24,539 nt of DNA, taken from the NCBI GenBank assembly GCA_900751785.1, contig CAADSM010000008.1:1-24539 (forward strand), given 5' to 3'. The position numbers were made by a program, and so were the translations under genes. Shown in pieces: positions 1 to 8,622 of the stretch. The notes under the pieces are model-generated. The model ran no database searches. It was given only the letters and a program-made list of their open reading frames with translations, and was not told where the DNA came from. How positions within the stretch are numbered: the first letter of the stretch is position 1; each line of letters opens with the position of its first letter. Source of the DNA: Lachnospiraceae bacterium (GTDB taxonomy: Bacteria; Bacillota; Clostridia; Lachnospirales; Lachnospiraceae).

Positions 1-3000
1 ATCGGTCTTGTCGCCTTTCTTGAACTCCAGATACTGCATTGCCTTGATCAGATTGCTCCATGCTGTGTCCACATCGCTCTGTGTCACTGTGGTGTCGCCT
101 TCCTGAACTCTTGCAAGTACATCCTTCGCAGCCTGCAGTGCGTTCTCGAAGTTTTCTTTCACTGCATCTACAACACCGTCTGTGCTCGCGCCTTCAGCAA
201 GCTCGATCGCGTATTCCAGAACTGCTGTGGAAATATCTCCGCCCGGCTCAACCGGCTCTTCTTCGTCGACTCTGATGTCGAACATCGCCTCGAATCCGGC
301 ATATCCTACCGTTACTGTCACATTGCCTGCTTCCAGAGCTGTATCCAGACCAGGTGTGAATGTGAAGCTGCCTGCTGTCTCGTCAGAGTATGCTACATCT
401 GCTGTAGATCCGTCGCTGTAGCTTACTGTCAGAACAAGTCCGCTCGGATCAAGCGTCTCGCCCTCTGTGTAAACATTCTTAGTCGGAGCAGTCTTTACTG
501 CGATACCTGTAGCAGTTACTTCTGATCCTCCGCTCACCCTGATCTCAAATTCTGCGGATGCGCTTCCGGAATATCCGTACTGTCCAAGACCTGTAACGAT
601 TGCTGTTGCCGTTCCCTCAGCAGTGTTGTTCTCATAGGATACGATGTAGTCAACGCCGTATCTGAGTTCTGCACCGTCAAGAGCAACTGTGATCTCATCA
701 GCGCTCAGTGTTACCGGATGATCTTCATCTACAACATCCACTTCCTTCACTTCAGGAACTGTAACCTCTGCATTGCTGATGTCTGTCGTCTCTTCTGCCA
801 TTCTTACACGAAGCTCAGCCGCGCTCATGAATCTGTTATTTCCGGAATCGCCAAATGTGCTGAGACCTGTGAGACGAACATATTTTGCCATCATCGGCTG
901 ATCAAACACTGCCAGCTTCCAGCCTGCCGTATTTTCCCAGGATCCCGTAGATACAGCTGTCCACTCTTCGCCGTCCGTGCTTACTTCTACCAGATATTCA
1001 GAGACACGTCCATTCTCGCTTCCGTCACGTCCATAGTAACGAAGTGCATCGAGCATTGTCTCTTCTTCCAGTTCAAGCGTGATCCAGAAATCGGACATCG
1101 GAACTGTCACATTCCAGTTCGTATGCCACCATGTTCCGGTATTATTATCTACCGCATAGGATGCAGGTCCTTCATTTCCGCCTCCCGGATACTCGCTTGC
1201 TGCTGTTGCAGTTGTCTTTGTATAGTCGTAATCTCTGCTGTCATCCGCAGCGTCGCCTGCAGATGCGTCTACACCAAGGTTGATCGTAAATGTGTTTCTT
1301 GTACTGTGGTCCTCAGACTCGATGATCAGTTTTGCTGCGTTCTCATACGGCGGAATATATGTTACCGCTGCATTGTCTGCGCCTGCATACTGGATCGTAT
1401 CGATCAGGATCGCCTCTGTGTCAAAGTATCCGTTTGCCAGATCTGATGCACTTGCTTCCAGGCCATTGACTGACAGCGACTGAAGTGCTGCTGTAGAGTT
1501 CGTCGTATAGGAGCCTGTCCACTCGTTGATCATAACCTCTGTGATCGCTACACTCGGTTTAGACAGATCCGTACCTGTCGGATTCACAACACGAAGTTTT
1601 ACATAAGTTGCTAACTGCGGGTCAAAATTATATGTATATGCCTTGACCCTTGTCGGATTCTCGGACTCAGCGATCGTCTCTTCCGCCTCTACCTTTGTCC
1701 AGCTGTTGTCCTCGCCTGTTTCGGAGATATAGATCTCTGTCGTTCCGGCGTTCGGGAATCTCAGGCCACTGTAGTCTCTTGCGAAGTAAACAACGATCTC
1801 TCCGACTCTCTGCTGAGTATCATAGCGGAATGTAATCTCCGCATCATTGTCATTATTCTTGTTTGTATTCGTCCAGTTGCTCCATGCCGTGAGGTTAGCT
1901 CCGCCGCTTGTGTTGTCGCTGATCGCTGTATTTCCATCTTTGATCGCTTCAAGCGTATCTGACTGGAAGCCTGCCTCAATATCCTGGCTCAGGTTGGCTG
2001 CTCCTGTCACACTGTCGCCGATTGTAACCTGCTGCTCCTGCACACGTACAACAGCAGACACTGTCATCTCCTGTCCGAGTACATTCGCCGTACCTGTTAC
2101 CATCACCGGACCGACTTCATCATAGCTGCCCTCAGGCTCGCCCCACTCTACCGGGAAGGATGCGCTGATCACTTCGCCGTTCTGGAGCACTGCAGGTCTT
2201 GATTCCGGAAGCACCGGTTCTGTTCCGACCGGAACTGTAGTAGTGTAGTTGAGCAGTGCAGCCACCTGATCGATCATGTTGACCGTTACAGAAACTGTAT
2301 CGCCCGCCTCTGTCACACCTGCAACTGAGAATGTGCCTGTCTGTGCGATCTGGTCCTCTGAGATCTCATTCCATGTCACCGTCATGTCAGCCTCAGAATT
2401 GTCAGAATACACAGCTGTTACTGTCTCAGGCAGCTGAGGCATATTGCCGGTCTTCACATAATAGTTTCTGGACATCATGTAGTAGCTTAATGACGTTTCT
2501 CCGGACTCTTCTTCCACCGGTGTCGTATTGATCGTCACAACAGCCGGATCAAGTCCGTCCGCGCTTGCTGTTACTTTGATCTCGCCTGCGTTCTTCGTAG
2601 ACTGTACGATCGCAACAAGCTGACCGCTGAACGCATCCCTATTATCGTCCTGATAGGACTGATGATCTGCCTGCTCGCCATTGTCAACACCTACAAGCGT
2701 TCCTTCGCCTTCTACTGTAAACTTCACATTGTTTGCCGCATCAGGAACGATTTCACCATTTTCATCTTCAACGCTGACAGTAATATAGCTCAACTCTGTG
2801 CCGTCAGCCGCGATCTCTGTACGGTCGGCCTCTGCATCCAGCTTAGCCTCATCTCCGGTCGTCGTCACATAAGTACGTCCTTCAACCTGGTCGAGATCGA
2901 TCGCATTGCCTTCTGCGTCCCATGCCTCTGCTGAAATGGTTCCTTCTTCAAACGGTACATTCCATGTCAGATAGAGATTCTTATGGGCGGTTCCGTTTGC

Positions 3001-5253
3001 GCCTTCTCCCTCATAAATCTGATAGGTATATCCCGCATCCGTAGTCTTTGTCGTAAATTCCTTTGTTCCAAGATCCTTTACTTCTCCGTCTGCAGTAGTA
3101 AGCGTCAGTTTTACTTTCGCTGCATCTGTATATACAACGACCGGAACTTCTCCGCTTCCGTTTGTTGTCACGACATCTTCATTCCATGCGGGAAGAATAT
3201 GGAGCGTGTCAACGTCGTCGTTCCACTGGCTCTGATAAAAATAGTAGCTGTCCTTCGGAAGTCCTGCGGTATCAACGATACCGAAATAGGAGTTCTTCGG
3301 AGACGGCCAGGATGACACTGCCCCGGTGCTTGTTCCGTTCCACGGTGTAGGCTCGCCGATATAGTCAAAACCTGTCCATACATATTCACCGGCCACGAAA
3401 TCACGCTGGATCACATCATACCATGCGCTGCTTGCAAGAGCCCCCCAGCCTACTGCCGAGTTGTCATAAGACGTAAGGTTCTTATCTGCCGTCTGTGACG
3501 CGCCGCCGCTTCCTAATCTGTCATAAATACCGCGGCTGTTGACCGATGAAGCCGTCTCTGATCCGTAGATAGGCCAGTCCGGACTTGCTTCGTGCTGCGT
3601 ATCATACTGCGATCCGTTTGTATAGTTGAGGCCTACTGCCCCGCCGGCCTGGGCAAGCGAATCCATAATATTATATGCTGTTCCGGATGTATTACCTTTA
3701 ACATTATTATCGCCTCTTGTGACAGGCCTTGTCGAATCAAGCTCCTGAGCCCATGCGATCAGCTTGCTCTGTGCATCTGCATAAGTCTGGTTAAGACCAT
3801 AGGCTGTTCCTTCCTGCACCTCGTTTCCGAGAGACCACATAATCACGGAAGGAGCATTCTGTCCTCTCTTGATCATGGCGGTCAGATCGAACTGTGCCCA
3901 TGTCATTCCTGATTCTGCCCCGATGATTTCGTTACCGTCATCAATTGTCTGGTCAAACCATACAGAATAGTCATTGGAATTGCCGTTTTTCGGATACATC
4001 CAGCCGTCGAACGCCTCATCGATCACAAGGATTCCCTGCTCGTTGCACGCCTCGATCAGCTCGTCTGCAGCCGGGTTGTGTGTTACGCGGATAGAGTTGC
4101 ATCCCATCTCTTTCAGGATTTTCACCTGACGGTTGATCGCATCCTCCCATGCCTCTGCTCCAAGGGCTCCCTGATCGTGGTGCATGCAGACGCCCTTCAG
4201 CTTCATATTCTCTCCGTTTAATGAGAAACCTGTATTGGCATCAAGATTAAAGTAGCGGTAACCAAATTCTGTGTCATATGTATCGACAACAGTGTCACCA
4301 ACCTTCACTTCTGTTCTCACAGTATAGAGTGCCGGGTTATCGGATGTGTCCCACAGTGTCGGATTATTTACCGGTACTGTTGCATCGATATCTGCGCTCG
4401 CGCCGGCAGCTACTTCTACAGCCTCTGTCGTCACAGTTCCGATGCTGTCCTCTGCATCTCCGTCTTTCGGGAATACAGTATTTGTAAGTGTTACATTCTG
4501 TGCTTCTGCGGAATCATTTACCACAGTTGTGCTGACGTTCGTGCTTACCGTGCCGCCAGCTTCTTCCTCCAGGTTCGGAGTCTCGATCTTTGTTCCGTAC
4601 AGATCGACATGTACCGGATCTGTGATCGTCAGATCCACGCTCCTGTAGATACCGCTTCCTGAATACCAGCGGCTGGACGGAGTCTGGTGATTTACCTTTA
4701 CAGTGATCACATTGTCTCCGCCGTAATTTACATAATCAGTAATATCGAAGGAGAACGGTGTGTATCCGTAAGGATGGCTTCCGACCTCATGGCCGTTTAC
4801 CCAGATCGTAGAATTCATGTAAACTCCGCCGAAATCAATCCGAATCCTCTTGCCTTCCGCACTGCTGTCAACGGTAAAGTTCTTCCTGTACCATCCGGTT
4901 CCTCCCGGAAGATAGCCGCTTTCTGCTTCCCCGGATGTCGAATAATCCTGCTCGATGCTGTAATCGTGCGGAAGATTCACCTGCTCCCAGCTCGAGTCAT
5001 TGAAGCCCGGGTCCTCTGCGCCCGATGCGTCGCCCAGATAGAATTTCCAGTTGTCGTTGAAATTCTCCGAGCGTTCTGTTCCGGAATAGCTGTTTACATA
5101 GACAGCTTCCGGGTCAGAACTCATCTGCACGTCTGAATCCGAAGCAACCCTGACCAGCGGGCCGGCAGCGTACGCCGTAGCGGGCACCATACCAAGTGTC
5201 AGTGCCGCTGCCATTGCCATTGCGCCTACTCTTTTTAAATTGCGCTTCTTCAT
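1..5253 (-). CDS. Secreted multidomain GH2 beta-galactosidase-type glycosidase (partial, C-terminus off window)
   Basis: Open for 1751 codons from ATG at 5253 (GGGAGG upstream) to the left edge. Residues 1-29 are a signal peptide (KKRNLKR, hydrophobic core, ATAYA cleavage site). GH2 sugar-binding domain about 60-220, GH2 Ig-like domain 222-330, TIM barrel 330-630. The acid/base is E478 in SLGNEV and the nucleophile is E566 in YGSETAS. A DUF4982-like domain (about 690-785), a GH2 C5/invasin-like domain (800-905), two Big_4-like repeats (928-1071), a first discoidin-like domain (1077-1230), an F5/8 type C/CBM32 domain (about 1348-1480), an Ig/FN3-like module (1490-1576), a Big_3 domain (1575-1657) and a FIVAR helical module (1672 onward) follow. 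The family hydrolyses beta-galactosides of host or dietary glycans outside the cell. The layout resembles BgaA/BbgIII-type enzymes, so a cell-wall anchor beyond the edge is expected. Exact substrate is unknown; beta-glucuronidase or another GH2 specificity is possible. Confidence 0.93.
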   Translation of the reverse strand, partial: MKKRNLKRVGAMAMAAALTLGMVPATAYAAGPLVRVASDSDVQMSSDPEAVYVNSYSGTERSENFNDNWKFYLGDASGAEDPGFNDSSWEQVNLPHDYSIEQDYSTSGEAESGYLPGGTGWYRKNFTVDSSAEGKRIRIDFGGVYMNSTIWVNGHEVGSHPYGYTPFSFDITDYVNYGGDNVITVKVNHQTPSSRWYSGSGIYRSVDLTITDPVHVDLYGTKIETPNLEEEAGGTVSTNVSTTVVNDSAEAQNVTLTNTVFPKDGDAEDSIGTVTTEAVEVAAGASADIDATVPVNNPTLWDTSDNPALYTVRTEVKVGDTVVDTYDTEFGYRYFNLDANTGFSLNGENMKLKGVCMHHDQGALGAEAWEDAINRQVKILKEMGCNSIRVTHNPAADELIEACNEQGILVIDEAFDGWMYPKNGNSNDYSVWFDQTIDDGNEIIGAESGMTWAQFDLTAMIKRGQNAPSVIMWSLGNEVQEGTAYGLNQTYADAQSKLIAWAQELDSTRPVTRGDNNVKGNTSGTAYNIMDSLAQAGGAVGLNYTNGSQYDTQHEASPDWPIYGSETASSVNSRGIYDRLGSGGASQTADKNLTSYDNSAVGWGALASSAWYDVIQRDFVAGEYVWTGFDYIGEPTPWNGTSTGAVSSWPSPKNSYFGIVDTAGLPKDSYYFYQSQWNDDVDTLHILPAWNEDVVTTNGSGEVPVVVYTDAAKVKLTLTTADGEVKDLGTKEFTTKTTDAGYTYQIYEGEGANGTAHKNLYLTWNVPFEEGTISAEAWDAEGNAIDLDQVEGRTYVTTTGDEAKLDAEADRTEIAADGTELSYITVSVEDENGEIVPDAANNVKFTVEGEGTLVGVDNGEQADHQSYQDDNRDAFSGQLVAIVQSTKNAGEIKVTASADGLDPAVVTINTTPVEEESGETSLSYYMMSRNYYVKTGNMPQLPETVTAVYSDNSEADMTVTWNEISEDQIAQTGTFSVAGVTEAGDTVSVTVNMIDQVAALLNYTTTVPVGTEPVLPESRPAVLQNGEVISASFPVEWGEPEGSYDEVGPVMVTGTANVLGQEMTVSAVVRVQEQQVTIGDSVTGAANLSQDIEAGFQSDTLEAIKDGNTAISDNTSGGANLTAWSNWTNTNKNNDNDAEITFRYDTQQRVGEIVVYFARDYSGLRFPNAGTTEIYISETGEDNSWTKVEAEETIAESENPTRVKAYTYNFDPQLATYVKLRVVNPTGTDLSKPSVAITEVMINEWTGSYTTNSTAALQSLSVNGLEASASDLANGYFDTEAILIDTIQYAGADNAAVTYIPPYENAAKLIIESEDHSTRNTFTINLGVDASAGDAADDSRDYDYTKTTATAASEYPGGGNEGPASYAVDNNTGTWWHTNWNVTVPMSDFWITLELEEETMLDALRYYGRDGSENGRVSEYLVEVSTDGEEWTAVSTGSWENTAGWKLAVFDQPMMAKYVRLTGLSTFGDSGNNRFMSAAELRVRMAEETTDISNAEVTVPEVKEVDVVDEDHPVTLSADEITVALDGAELRYGVDYIVSYENNTAEGTATAIVTGLGQYGYSGSASAEFEIRVSGGSEVTATGIAVKTAPTKNVYTEGETLDPSGLVLTVSYSDGSTADVAYSDETAGSFTFTPGLDTALEAGNVTVTVGYAGFEAMFDIRVDEEEPVEPGGDISTAVLEYAIELAEGASTDGVVDAVKENFENALQAAKDVLARVQEGDTTVTQSDVDTAWSNLIKAMQYLEFKKGDKTD

Positions 5254-5293
5254 GTTTTTCCTCCCATTCTTTAATGTATTGAAGGCTTGTTAC

Positions 5294-5349
5294 GAAAACA
5301 AAAAAGGCCAGACGTCCACCTGCTTACCTCCACACGAACATCTGGTCTT
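5294..5349 (-). terminator. Leader intrinsic terminator (attenuator) of the GH2 gene
   Basis: On the minus strand AAGACCAGATGT (5349-5338) pairs with ACGTCTGGCCTT (5315-5304): ten Watson-Crick pairs, one G-U and one mismatch, with a 22-nt loop. A T-rich run (TTTTTTGTTTT) follows. It lies about 40 nt upstream of the GH2 start and no gene precedes it on that strand, so it acts in the leader rather than at a gene end. Its 5' arm shares 6 nt with the antiterminator element at 5344-5372, so the two structures exclude each other. Confidence 0.85.
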
Positions 5350-5372
5350 GCCTGCATTATCAGTAACAACCC
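5344..5372 (-). promoter_or_regulatory. RAT element: BglG/LicT/SacT-type ribonucleic antiterminator
   Basis: The minus strand reads GGGTTGTTACTG, a 5-nt loop ATAAT, then GCAGGCAAGACC. This matches the bgl/lic RAT pattern (GGATTGTTACTG, loop, GCAGGCAAAACC) except for two positions outside the loop. The outer GG/CC pairing, the internal G-A mismatch and the inner CTG/CAG stem are kept. In known systems a PTS-controlled antiterminator protein binds this RNA and blocks the overlapping terminator. The element begins within a few bases of the predicted transcription start. No antiterminator gene is present in the window. Confidence 0.88.
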
Positions 5373-5383
5373 AACTTACGATT

Positions 5384-5412
5384 ATTTTAACGTTTTTGAC
5401 ATTTTTTCACAA
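5384..5412 (-). promoter_or_regulatory. Promoter of the GH2 gene
   Basis: TTGTGA (5412-5407), a 17-nt spacer, then TAAAAT (5389-5384) on the minus strand. The predicted start near 5377 places the RAT at the very 5' end of the transcript, as in known BglG-controlled leaders. Confidence 0.75.
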
Positions 5413-5422
5413 TCGTTTTCAT
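5408..5422 (-). promoter_or_regulatory. Possible cre-like (CcpA) site overlapping the -35 box
   Basis: ATGAAAACGATTGTG on the minus strand fits the degenerate Gram-positive cre pattern WTGNAANCGNWNNCW except for one position near its 3' end. It covers the -35 box, where CcpA binding would repress. Catabolite repression together with RAT control is common for glycosidase genes, but this motif is weak and may be chance. Confidence 0.3.
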
Positions 5423-5505
5423 AAAAGAATCCCTTTTTCTGCTAATTGCACAAGATTGTCTTGATTTTTATCCTGTTTATCCTGTTTTTTTGGTGGTTTT
5501 TACTT

Positions 5506-5533
5506 TTCACGAATGTGACATATATGATATACT
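5506..5533 (+). promoter_or_regulatory. Promoter of the small membrane protein / DUF975 operon
   Basis: TTCACG (5506-5511), a 16-nt spacer, then TATACT (5528-5533), preceded by TGA to give an extended -10 (TGATATACT). It is divergent from the GH2 promoter and lies about 50 nt before the first gene. Confidence 0.6.
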
Positions 5534-5586
5534 GTTAACATATTTATCTGTCACAAAATTTATCGATCAAACACGGAGGATTATCT

Positions 5587-5961
5587 ATGAAAAAGAGCAG
5601 ATTACTGCACATCGTTTCCATTATCATCATCATACTCAGCACGATTTCCGTCGTTTACGGTTCGATCGCTATCCTTACCTACAATTCCATGACCAGTATA
5701 ATGGAAGCCGAAGGGCTGGCGAATTATTCGATCGGCGTTTACACATTTTCTCTGATCGGCGCCTGCGTTGAACTGGCGGCAGGCATCGCCGGCGTGATGT
5801 ACAGATCCCGGAAGACCGTACTGATCCTCGGTATCCTGTACTGCCTCTATATCCTGGGAAGCCTCTGCTTTTCTGCTGTTACAGGCGGTTTCAGTGTCTC
5901 CGGACTTTCCAGCTGCATCCTTCCCGCTCTGTTCATGTGGGGATGGCATCAGTCGAAGTAA
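5587..5961 (+). CDS. Small four-helix membrane protein of unknown function
   Basis: 124 residues with RBS CGGAGG before the ATG. There are four likely membrane segments (about 7-29, 51-73, 77-97 and 103-121), a basic start (KKSR) and a basic stretch YRSRK between helices 2 and 3, consistent with a polytopic cytoplasmic-membrane protein. I do not recognise a named family and no catalytic motif is visible. It sits 21 nt before the DUF975-CmpB gene on the same strand, with no terminator between, so the two are probably co-transcribed from the extended -10 promoter at 5506-5533. A shared membrane-related role is only an inference from that pairing. Confidence 0.8.
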   Translation: MKKSRLLHIVSIIIIILSTISVVYGSIAILTYNSMTSIMEAEGLANYSIGVYTFSLIGACVELAAGIAGVMYRSRKTVLILGILYCLYILGSLCFSAVTGGFSVSGLSSCILPALFMWGWHQSK

Positions 5962-5982
5962 ACGCAGTCTGGAGGGAACGAT

Positions 5983-7569
5983 ATGTGGAAGCAAAAAACG
6001 CTTAAGAAAAAAGTACGCACGGCATTAAAGCAGAACTACTGGACCGTTGTCTCTGTCTGCTTCCTTATTGCCCTGCTCACGAGTGCTTACCCTGCCTCAA
6101 CGACCTTTGTCGGCTCCCATGCTGTCAATCCCGACAGTACTCTGCTGATAGCCGGGCCGTTCTCGCCGGATTCCTCCAACTCCGGGGTCATCAGCGAGAC
6201 GTTCCAGAACTTTTTGGGAGACACCGCTGTTTCTGATTTTTTTGCTTCAGACCATGCCTATCCTGTCGATCTGCTGATCGACCTTTTCTCGCCAGGCATT
6301 TCGGTGGTGATTTCTCTTCTGCGCGCTGTCAACAGCTATATTGCTGAGAACTGGAATACCTCAACCTTTTTCCTCATCCTCGGAGTGTTCACCGCGCTGT
6401 CCTATCAGCTTTTGGTCAGCAATGTGCTCATCGTCGGGGAAAAGCGCTTCTTTCTCGAGCAGCACAGCTACAGGAAAACGCCGATCTCCAAGATTTTCTG
6501 CCTTTACAAGCTGCGCTGTCTCGCAGGACCGGTATGGATCATGTTCTGCCGCTCCCTCTTCCAGGCGCTCTGGAACCTGACGGTAATCGGCGGACTCATA
6601 AAATTTTATGAATATCGGATGATCCCGTTCATTCTCGCGGAAAATCCGAAGATAAGCCGGAAGAACGCTTTCTTCCTGTCGCGTCAGCTGATGAACCATA
6701 ATAAATGGAAGCTTTTCCGCCTGCATCTTTCTTTTTTGGGCTGGAAAATCCTCTCCATCCTCTCATTCGGCATACTGGACCTGGCTTTTGTCAATCCTTA
6801 TCTGACCGGATGCGAAGCCGAGCTTTATCTGACGCTGCGCAGGAACTATGTCCTCTCCCGCTCGCCCCGCTATGAGTTTTTAAACGACTCCTATCTGGAG
6901 CACGTGCCGTCCGAGGACGAACTCCTCATCAGCAAAGCGCTGTACGACGACTCGAGAGGACCCTATACGAAGATTTCTTATTTTGCTCCGGAACAGTATC
7001 CGGTATTTCTCTTTTCCGTGCAGCCTCCGTTCAGCGCGGTGCGCTCACCGGTAAAGGCAAACCGGAAATACAGCTTTCTATCCCTTGTATTTCTGTTCCA
7101 CGCATTTTCCCTGCTGGGATATGCAGGCGAAGTGCTGATCCAGCTGATCACAAACGGCTCTCTTCCGGATCTGCCCATGCCCTTTGCGCCATGGCTGCCC
7201 ATTTACGGATTATACGGCGTCCTCATCCTTCTTATTGTAAAACATTTTTATGAGAAGCCGGCGCTGGTATTTCTGCTGAACTTTATCATCTATACAGTGC
7301 TGGAGTATCTTGTCAGCCTGGCGGGCGAGCTTTGGCTGGGATGCCGGCTTTGGGATTACAGCGGATATTTTCTGAATCTTAACGGAAGAGTATATGTAGG
7401 CGGATCTGTTAGCGTCGCCATGCTCGGCTGTACCTTCCTCTATTATCTCGCGCCCAGACTCACGGACCTCTTCCTGAAGCTGAAGAAGGATCTGCGCATC
7501 CTTCTGTGCATTGTCCTGTCCGTTCTTTTTATCGCCGCCGCGGTCTTATCCATGCTGCACTATCTGTAA
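5983..7569 (+). CDS. DUF975 - CmpB (putative ABC-transporter type IV) fusion membrane protein
   Basis: 528 residues with RBS GGAGGG. The N-terminal half (1-305) is DUF975-like: a basic start with ALKQNYW at 14-20, then the family block EYRMIPFILAENPKIS at 210-225, followed by SRQLMNHNKWKLF and FLGWKILSILSFGIL, and the NPYL motif at 271. A hydrophilic linker (about 300-360) leads to a second membrane domain (362-495) with GYAGEVLIQL, LWDYSGYFLNLNGRV (456-470) and GGSVSVAMLG, typical of the ABC_trans_CmpB family (PF06541). Both families are common in Firmicutes and neither has a firmly known biochemical role. Single-domain versions usually occur as separate genes, so the fusion suggests they work together. 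It has about ten membrane segments and no ATPase motif, so calling it a transporter would be unsupported. Confidence 0.82.
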   Translation: MWKQKTLKKKVRTALKQNYWTVVSVCFLIALLTSAYPASTTFVGSHAVNPDSTLLIAGPFSPDSSNSGVISETFQNFLGDTAVSDFFASDHAYPVDLLIDLFSPGISVVISLLRAVNSYIAENWNTSTFFLILGVFTALSYQLLVSNVLIVGEKRFFLEQHSYRKTPISKIFCLYKLRCLAGPVWIMFCRSLFQALWNLTVIGGLIKFYEYRMIPFILAENPKISRKNAFFLSRQLMNHNKWKLFRLHLSFLGWKILSILSFGILDLAFVNPYLTGCEAELYLTLRRNYVLSRSPRYEFLNDSYLEHVPSEDELLISKALYDDSRGPYTKISYFAPEQYPVFLFSVQPPFSAVRSPVKANRKYSFLSLVFLFHAFSLLGYAGEVLIQLITNGSLPDLPMPFAPWLPIYGLYGVLILLIVKHFYEKPALVFLLNFIIYTVLEYLVSLAGELWLGCRLWDYSGYFLNLNGRVYVGGSVSVAMLGCTFLYYLAPRLTDLFLKLKKDLRILLCIVLSVLFIAAAVLSMLHYL

Positions 7570-7669
7570 GTCTGCGGTTGATTTTTACAGGAAATAATAG
7601 TAAACTTTTCGTATACTCTATGGTGAACGTGAACATAGAAATTCTAAGAAATGAAAGGAAATAGATAAG

Positions 7670-8599
7670 ATGAAAAAACGAGTTGTAGTAGCTCTGGGAC
7701 ACCGTGCCCTGGGAACCACGCTTCCCGAACAGAAAATAGCAGTAAAGCATACCGCAAAATGTATCGCCGACCTGATCGAGGAGGGATACCAGATTGCGAT
7801 CACCCACAGCAACGCGCCGCAGATCGGCATGATCCATACAGCGATGAATGAATTTGCCAAGGCTCATCCGGAATATACCGCCTGCCCGATGTCTGTGTGC
7901 TCGGCCATGAGCCAGGGCTATATCGGATACGATCTGCAGAACGGGATCCGCGAAGAGCTTTTAAACCGCGGGATCTACCGCACAGTCAGCACCGTGCTCA
8001 CCCAGGTCATTGTAGATCCCTATGACGATGCTTTCTACACCCCGACGAAGGTGCTCGGCCGCTATATGAACGCGCAGGAAGCGAACGAAGAAAGGAAGAA
8101 GGGGAATTATGTCATCGAGGAGGCCGGCAAAGGCTTCCGCCGTGTCGTATGTGCCCCGAACCCGGTGAAGATCGTAGAGCTGGATGCGGTGAATGCGCTG
8201 CTTGACGCTGACCAGATCGTTGTAGCTGCCGGAGGCGGCGGCATCCCGGTCCTTGAGCAGGACAACCATCTGAAGGGCGCCAGCGCCGTCATCGAGAAGG
8301 ATCTTGCGGCCGGCAAGCTGGCAGAGGGCATCAATGCGGATATGCTCATCATCCTGACAAACGTCGAAAAAGTGTGCATCAATCTCGGACAGCCAGACGA
8401 AGAGCCGCTGGGCGAGATCTCTGTACAGCAGGCGAAGGACTATATGGAGCAGGGACATTTCGGAATCTACAACATGCTCCCGAAGTTCAAAGCCGCCGTC
8501 GACTTCATTGAAGGGCGCGAAGGCCGCTGTGCCTATATCACCTCGTTCGACAAAGTTAAGGACGCGCTGAAAGGAAAGACAGGAACCGTGATCCGCTGA
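7670..8599 (+). CDS. arcC: Carbamate kinase (variant active-site loop)
   Basis: 309 residues, the normal length for the family (amino-acid kinase fold, ATP + carbamate = ADP + carbamoyl phosphate, cytoplasmic). RBS GAAAGGAAAT before the ATG. Family landmarks: VLTQVIVDPYDDAF (109-122), PTKVLGR (125-131), AGGGGIPVLEQ (187-197), AVIEKDLAAGKLAEG (206-220), VCINLG (235-240), GHFGIYNMLPKF (262-273) and TGTVIR at the end. The glycine-rich first loop is GHRALG at 10-15 instead of the usual GGNAL. The second loop is HSNAPQIG at 46-53 instead of HGNGPQVG. No arginine deiminase or carbamoyltransferase gene is nearby. A -10-like TATACT at 7612-7617 suggests its own promoter, but no convincing -35 is visible. 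It is closed by a strong terminator at 8623-8656. The symbol is by family and the physiological pathway is not determined. Confidence 0.85.
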   Translation: MKKRVVVALGHRALGTTLPEQKIAVKHTAKCIADLIEEGYQIAITHSNAPQIGMIHTAMNEFAKAHPEYTACPMSVCSAMSQGYIGYDLQNGIREELLNRGIYRTVSTVLTQVIVDPYDDAFYTPTKVLGRYMNAQEANEERKKGNYVIEEAGKGFRRVVCAPNPVKIVELDAVNALLDADQIVVAAGGGGIPVLEQDNHLKGASAVIEKDLAAGKLAEGINADMLIILTNVEKVCINLGQPDEEPLGEISVQQAKDYMEQGHFGIYNMLPKFKAAVDFIEGREGRCAYITSFDKVKDALKGKTGTVIR

Positions 8600-8622
8600 A
8601 CTGAATAAAGAACTATTTTCAC

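Follow-up and report, generated by a model that had tools for sequence, protein, structure and literature searches.

The leader of the giant GH2 glycosidase gene in the window (the whole 24,539-nucleotide stretch of Lachnospiraceae DNA that was analysed) is, judged by its sequence, a RAT/terminator switch, which confirms an earlier observation. The reading preferred here, to which a probability of about 75% is given, is that of a LicT-type switch worked by NagT in response to GlcNAc. The name NagT is coined here for the LicT-like CAT-RBD protein of the nag locus. Without inducer, the terminator hairpin would form and transcription would end in the GH2 leader. Entry of GlcNAc through the phosphotransferase NagE would relieve NagT of its NagE-dependent phosphorylation; the freed protein would bind the RAT and block the terminator stem, and transcription would reach GH2. 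Switching of the GH2 leader would in this way depend on the inducer. NagT, encoded elsewhere in the nag locus, would act in trans on this leader. Its other targets would be the leaders of nagT itself and of nagBA and, in close relatives, those of four more surface glycosidases. Once sensed, the released sugar would lead to more uptake and to more of some of the enzymes releasing it. The RAT, the terminator, their conservation, a regulator gene, the nag locus and a set of RAT-led genes are all found in the DNA of the window or of its relatives. The parts of the leader are the following:

5384..5412, minus strand: predicted promoter TTGTGA-17-TAAAAT (9/12 in a consensus scan; TAAAAT is kept in the alignment with G049 and G002, the two genomes nearest to the window)
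5344..5372, minus strand: RAT, a predicted antiterminator hairpin of the LicT type with a U11-A20 apical stem (found by pattern; identical in G049, one base off in G002)
5300..5345, minus strand: intrinsic terminator with the stem 5345-5334/5319-5308 and T6 at 5305-5300 (folding and conservation)
5284..5293, minus strand: GTAACAAGCC, able to pair with the 5' arm of the RAT (5372-5363) as an outer helix (fold and alignment)
5260..5265, minus strand: ribosome-binding site GGGAGG, read from the sequence
1..5253, minus strand: secreted GH2 glycosidase with F5/8 type C and Big domains, running off the window (ORF and domain scan)

The RAT is 29 nt long (GGGTTGTTACTGATAATGCAGGCAAGACC, 5372-5344, minus strand) and is situated between the predicted promoter and the GH2 gene. 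The pattern GGNTTGTTACTGNNNNNGCAGGCAANACC has a single match in the window, with 0 mismatches even if up to three were allowed, and 0 matches in 100 shuffles. From the bgl/lic consensus the RAT differs at two non-loop positions, 3 and 26 (both A to G), just as the preliminary description had it. The promoter-like site (5412-5384) is one of eight such sites (9/12 match) in 1.2 kb and is weak alone; it would place the transcription start a few bases before the RAT.

Folding of the leader RNA (5377-5253, minus strand), proposed earlier as a check, gives a stable structure of -39 kcal/mol (z -3.47; 1 of 200 shuffles as good) in which the terminator hairpin is seen. The core stem of this terminator has 2 nt in common with the RAT (RAT positions 28 and 29). 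With the pairs of the U-tract counted, 8 RAT nucleotides are paired in the terminator, so that the RAT helix and the full terminator are mutually exclusive. The overlap as such thus holds, and the 6 nt originally given for it fall between the 2 nt of the core and the 8 nt reached with the U-tract; fold comparison reveals the overlap in relatives as well, several of which have exactly 6 nt. A simple terminator scan of the leader found 0 terminators (1.2 expected by shuffles), and the window hairpin hence rests on folding and conservation. Such an unflagged hairpin would fit a chance likeness to a RAT, which is nevertheless scarcely credible: the shuffles gave no match, the element is conserved in the same place, and G002 and G049 contain seven sites each, against 0 and 1 for the reversed pattern. 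An Rfam search of the leader returned no family at the gathering threshold.

The outer helix (5293-5284/5372-5363) could form only in the read-through RNA, and both G049 and G002 keep GTGACAAGCC there. A closing outer helix is also part of the fold of other glycosidase leaders in G002. That of the GH29 leader shows two compensatory pairs between G002 and G049; that of the GH84+GH20 leader of G002 is not kept in G049.

The GH2 gene starts at 5253, downstream of the terminator, and encodes the secreted GH2 domains expected from the preliminary description. Within the window it spans 1751 aa, and the frame runs off the window end. A domain scan identified the GH2 N-terminal, Ig-like and TIM-barrel domains, DUF4982, GH2_C5, F5/8 type C, Big_4 and Big_3. 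In NCBIfam it comes nearest to the beta-galactosidases GalB and GalA but reaches neither cut-off, so that the label beta-galactosidase is provisional. The ortholog of G002 (L002) is complete, with 1976 aa and a signal-peptide-like N-terminus; its C-terminus consists of KTGD, a hydrophobic stretch and RKKEDK, which we take to be a sortase-type wall anchor. This giant surface enzyme probably trims host glycans.

The switch is conserved at its locus. Among the 58 genus genomes, the nearest is G049, with 89% DNA identity over 5254-8600 (79% for G002), and its RAT is identical, with the same GH2 beginning behind it (L148). In G002, the locus is collinear with the window over most of the window length, and the RAT, one base different, occupies the same place before GH2. 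RAT and terminator are retained together at the same locus in three species. Furthermore, the GH2 orthologs in G005, G008 and G010 combine a RAT with a terminator that differs in sequence while its pairs covary. Both facts speak against the leader being a relic or an unswitched element, with a leaky terminator or an unbound RAT, and with GH2 governed chiefly by the promoter or a different regulator. What would fit such a relic is the presence, before GH20 in G029, of a RAT-like site without any terminator, and the fact that most GH2 relatives lack the RAT; on balance it is very unlikely.

The frequency of the RAT among GH2 relatives was obtained from a scan of genome contigs, in which the best of 376 relatives were kept, giving 79 distinct GH2 loci; the RNA model places a RAT in the leader of five of these best 79, a low share that tells against the preferred reading. 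For four loci (L010, L046, L051, L065), fewer than 420 bases upstream of GH2 were available. The scores are 39.7 bits for L002, 35.0-35.2 for L010, L005 and L008, and 27.8 for L058, recorded as Ca. Avoscillospira; the window itself scores 36.1. The window, L002, L005, L008 and L010 were in the training set of the model. The leader of L035 (14.2 bits) was counted as noise.

The antiterminator gene presumably lies outside the window, as had been stated: 67 window ORFs of at least 80 aa were listed mechanically, 17 were scanned for domains, and none of the 17 contains a CAT-RBD or PRD domain. It was sought in G049 and G002. CAT-RBD proteins occur in 53 of the 58 genus genomes, with two each in G002 and G049 (at E 0.001), and a protein with a CAT-RBD plus two PRD domains is present in both. 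This NagT is encoded in a locus of the order nagB-nagA-nagT-IIA-nagE. It scores 379.8 (G002) and 377.7 bits (G049) against the NCBIfam LicT model, the cut-off of which is 300, and its nearest solved structures are LicT chains. Four PRD histidines align with those of LicT; they are presumably the phosphorylation sites, and NagT would be controlled through them. NagB and NagA exceed their model cut-offs in both genomes. NagE is over the cut-off of the GlcNAc-PTS model (553.2) in G002, with 566.4, and just under it in G049, with 549.3, where this model is still the best match by far. The same RAT type is found in nagT's own leader and in the nagB leader of both genomes. This LicT-like antiterminator beside a GlcNAc-type PTS supports what was originally put forward, namely that a protein of the LicT type, controlled by the PTS, acts in trans. 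The idea of a switch by a PTS sugar is likewise supported; by comparison with the relatives, the inducing sugar is most likely GlcNAc and not a beta-glucoside. The window's own genome would carry nagT as its two nearest relatives do.

The second CAT-RBD protein of G002 and G049 is nearest to GlcT (222, against a model cut-off of 320). Its gene adjoins a PTS gene whose best match is of the glucose type, below cut-off, and the PTS leader carries a RAT with another lower helix (GTGTTACTGGTAAGCAGGCATAAAC). Given this differently built RAT, the GlcT-like protein was rejected as the GH2 regulator.

A real RAT switch could still answer, in the window's genome, to another LicT/BglG protein and to another PTS sugar, such as a beta-glucoside or glucose. 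The bases G3/G26 of the window RAT, unlike the A3 or G3/A26 of the G002 sites, which are of the nag type, would agree with this, even if G26 alone does not exclude NagT, since G015 has A3/G26 before its own nagT-like gene. The search for antiterminators covered relatives of the window's genome; of these, G049, at 89% identity, has the identical RAT and, at E 0.001, only NagT and the GlcT-like protein, of which the latter has the leader RAT with the other lower helix. Genus members also carry beta-glucoside antiterminators with a third RAT type, but those RATs reach 24.6 bits, compared with 34 or more. Another regulator is, all in all, unlikely.

In the genus, all 25 nagT loci have a RAT in their own leader and a NagE-like IIC motif downstream, and in the 3 kb examined, an IIA motif was present in 22 and a NagA or NagB motif in 23. 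An antiterminator tree was built from 43 of 51 proteins, eight not being extracted; L085 and L103 have implausibly long branches, probably due to a poor choice of ORF, and the figure for its 'class3' group was not used, as this group contains the GlcT-like L097. The 27 NagT rows (25 from the genus, plus G014 and G015) are on one side of a branch with a support of 96/95. The CAT-RBD search found no NagT in G054, G059 and G006 despite a strong RAT site; in G006, the contig may end before an antiterminator gene.

The seven sites in each of G002 and G049, found by the core pattern and by the RNA model alike, precede nagB, nagT, GH2, GH84+GH20, GH84, GH29 and GH20. The C-terminal motif of the five RAT-led enzymes of G002 is KTGD in four and KSGD in one; behind it come a hydrophobic stretch and then basic residues. 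Over the genus, 59 sites of at least 34 bits are present in 28 of 58 genomes; for 30 of these RAT sites the scores are not independent, as the RNA model was trained on them. The strong sites precede nagT (25), nagB (16), surface glycosidases (16) and two other PTS loci (G053, G006). At 11 of the 16 nagB sites a NagB motif is seen, and at the other five only nagA is in a fitting place. The glycosidase sites comprise five each in G002 and G049, GH84 in G021 and G054, GH20 in G029, and GH2 in G005, G008 and G010. The site in G029 (L265 4344-4368) is RAT-like and located 61 bases before a GH20 surface protein; no terminator hairpin was found there. Outside the genus, a GH20 protein of G014 is also preceded by a RAT.

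Weaker sites were left out of the 59. Seven of 24.6-24.7 bits are next to CAT-RBD genes (beta-glucoside type). Another 21, of 18.7-20.7 bits and matching model positions 5-23, were taken as GlcT-type leaders, not each inspected, because the GlcT leader of G002 matches the same positions at 17.4 bits. The others are two sites of 22.8 bits (G006, G011) and those of G022 (19.1), G046 (24.1, inside another frame) and G047 (20, a diverged nagB leader). The core pattern alone gives 78 matches in 40 of the 58 genomes, compared with 23 for the reversed pattern, so part of the 78 is background.

In G002, the genome-wide search with the RNA model revealed no site beyond the seven. Twenty regions of this genome were fetched, which contain 24 further ORFs of at least 900 aa, TGD being the ending in 22; a search of these regions at E up to 2 gave no RAT, three ORF starts being at or beyond the region edge. 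Since the majority of the other large surface proteins of G002 lack a RAT, only some of the surface enzymes would be under the control of NagT. A domain scan of 20 other surface ORFs of G002 gave five GH101, three GH84, two GH20, and one each of GH33, GH95, PL8, LacZ-type GH2 and GH3. These three GH84 and two GH20 have no RAT, and the RAT-led genes are not claimed to be specially GlcNAc-releasing. The loci L298-L315 constitute a very large host-glycan-degrading surface set in one chicken-gut MAG, G002.

The RATs occur in two forms. In an alignment of 30 distinct RATs, 97.9% of the cells are paired in the two-helix fold, and the pairs of the apical stem covary, with a change on both sides in 22 cells (mean of the shuffles 7.5; none of 500 reached 22). 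U-A forms the second apical pair in 20 of the 30 and C-G in 10; the third is standard in 25, with four types. The C11-G20 form, with a short stem, is present at 13 of the 16 glycosidase sites, several of which are orthologs or recent copies and not separate events, and at 0 of the 43 other strong sites. The U11-A20 form is found at all 41 nag sites. The GH2 RAT is of the U-A form in the window, G049 and G002, and of the C-G form in G005, G008 and G010. Among 397 genomes of the family, only three match the C11-G20 RAT (class 2), one of them being G002. In G403 it precedes a frame that by eye resembles a chemotaxis-type receptor, and no terminator was noticed; in G332 the frame behind it looks, again by eye, like GH1. 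In the small clade of chicken-gut Mediterraneibacter relatives, one GlcNAc-sensing antiterminator might act in trans on nag genes and giant glycosidases, the two target groups being marked by different apical stems, a generalization that is tentative and rather doubtful. If true, the stems could set different affinities, and uptake genes and surface enzymes would be turned on at different GlcNAc levels.

To our knowledge, little is understood of how gut Lachnospiraceae time their mucin- and N-glycan-cutting surface enzymes. The wiring proposed here would be simple: the amino sugar freed outside is sensed at the PTS, leading to antitermination of its own uptake and of part of the surface enzyme set. 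The LicT system of Bacillus subtilis, with licS and bglPH, resembles the present one in its LicT-type protein, its nearly identical RAT and a secreted glycoside hydrolase controlled in trans, but has a beta-glucoside signal and a single secreted beta-glucanase.

The BglG-RAT switch of Clostridium acetobutylicum, for which the consensus GGATTGTTACTG-N6/7-CAGGCGAGACC and tests by mutants and reporters are reported (PMC12628678), likewise combines a RAT with an overlapping terminator; as described there, it belongs to a disaccharide PTS operon with two RATs inside and no surface enzymes. Closer still is NagY of Enterococcus faecalis, a BglG/SacY-type protein encoded beside the GlcNAc PTS. Through NagY, GlcNAc induces nagE, and NagY also binds the hylA leader; the product of hylA is a lyase that is anchored to the wall and carries F5/8 and FIVAR domains (PMC9981650). 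Binding and induction are reported for this system in the accessible parts of PMC9981650 and PMC12502629. Like NagY, NagT is beside a GlcNAc PTS, with a RAT overlapping a terminator in its own leader, and like hylA, GH2 is a surface glycan-degrading enzyme preceded by such an element. By contrast, the NagY RAT, given as TTTCATGTGACTAGATAATACTAGGCATGGAA, has by eye no GGNTTGTTAC...GGCAANACC frame (PMC12502629), the enzyme there is one PL8 lyase and here five glycosidases (G002, G049), and no RAT for nagBA is reported in the accessible parts of the two E. faecalis papers (PMC9981650, PMC12502629). The NagT system would hence work like NagY but is not filed as NagY, the likeness described here being one of arrangement. 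The mechanism is the standard BglG/LicT one, and its kind is already known, with NagY-hylA as the nearest case in the published texts accessible. What is new is this member of the kind, the number of enzymes that the set comprises and the short-stem RAT form on most of them. The literature search, largely of open papers, found no RAT control of such a glycosidase set in Lachnospiraceae.

The RAT is not tied to the enzyme that it precedes. The GH2 of L001 (10108-14915) has 96.5% DNA identity with the window (338-5149), other flanks, and no RAT in its leader, which indicates that RAT control goes with the leader and not with the enzyme. This pair is, on its identity and flanks, a recent exchange or duplication of the enzyme gene. 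The finding suggests that, in passing from species to species, large enzyme genes acquire and lose RAT control. The leaders of the GH84 gene with a class-2 RAT (L129, L211, L213) are almost alike in G002, G021 and G054, pointing to a recent transfer between species. Several of the RAT-less GH2 orthologs (L071, L001, L003, L004, L006, L007, L009, L023) share a leader with an inverted repeat, clearest by eye in L071 (TTGCACAATAGCA ... TGCTATTGTGCAA). In L005, L008 and L010, the RAT and terminator sit, again by eye, between arms similar to those of this inverted repeat.
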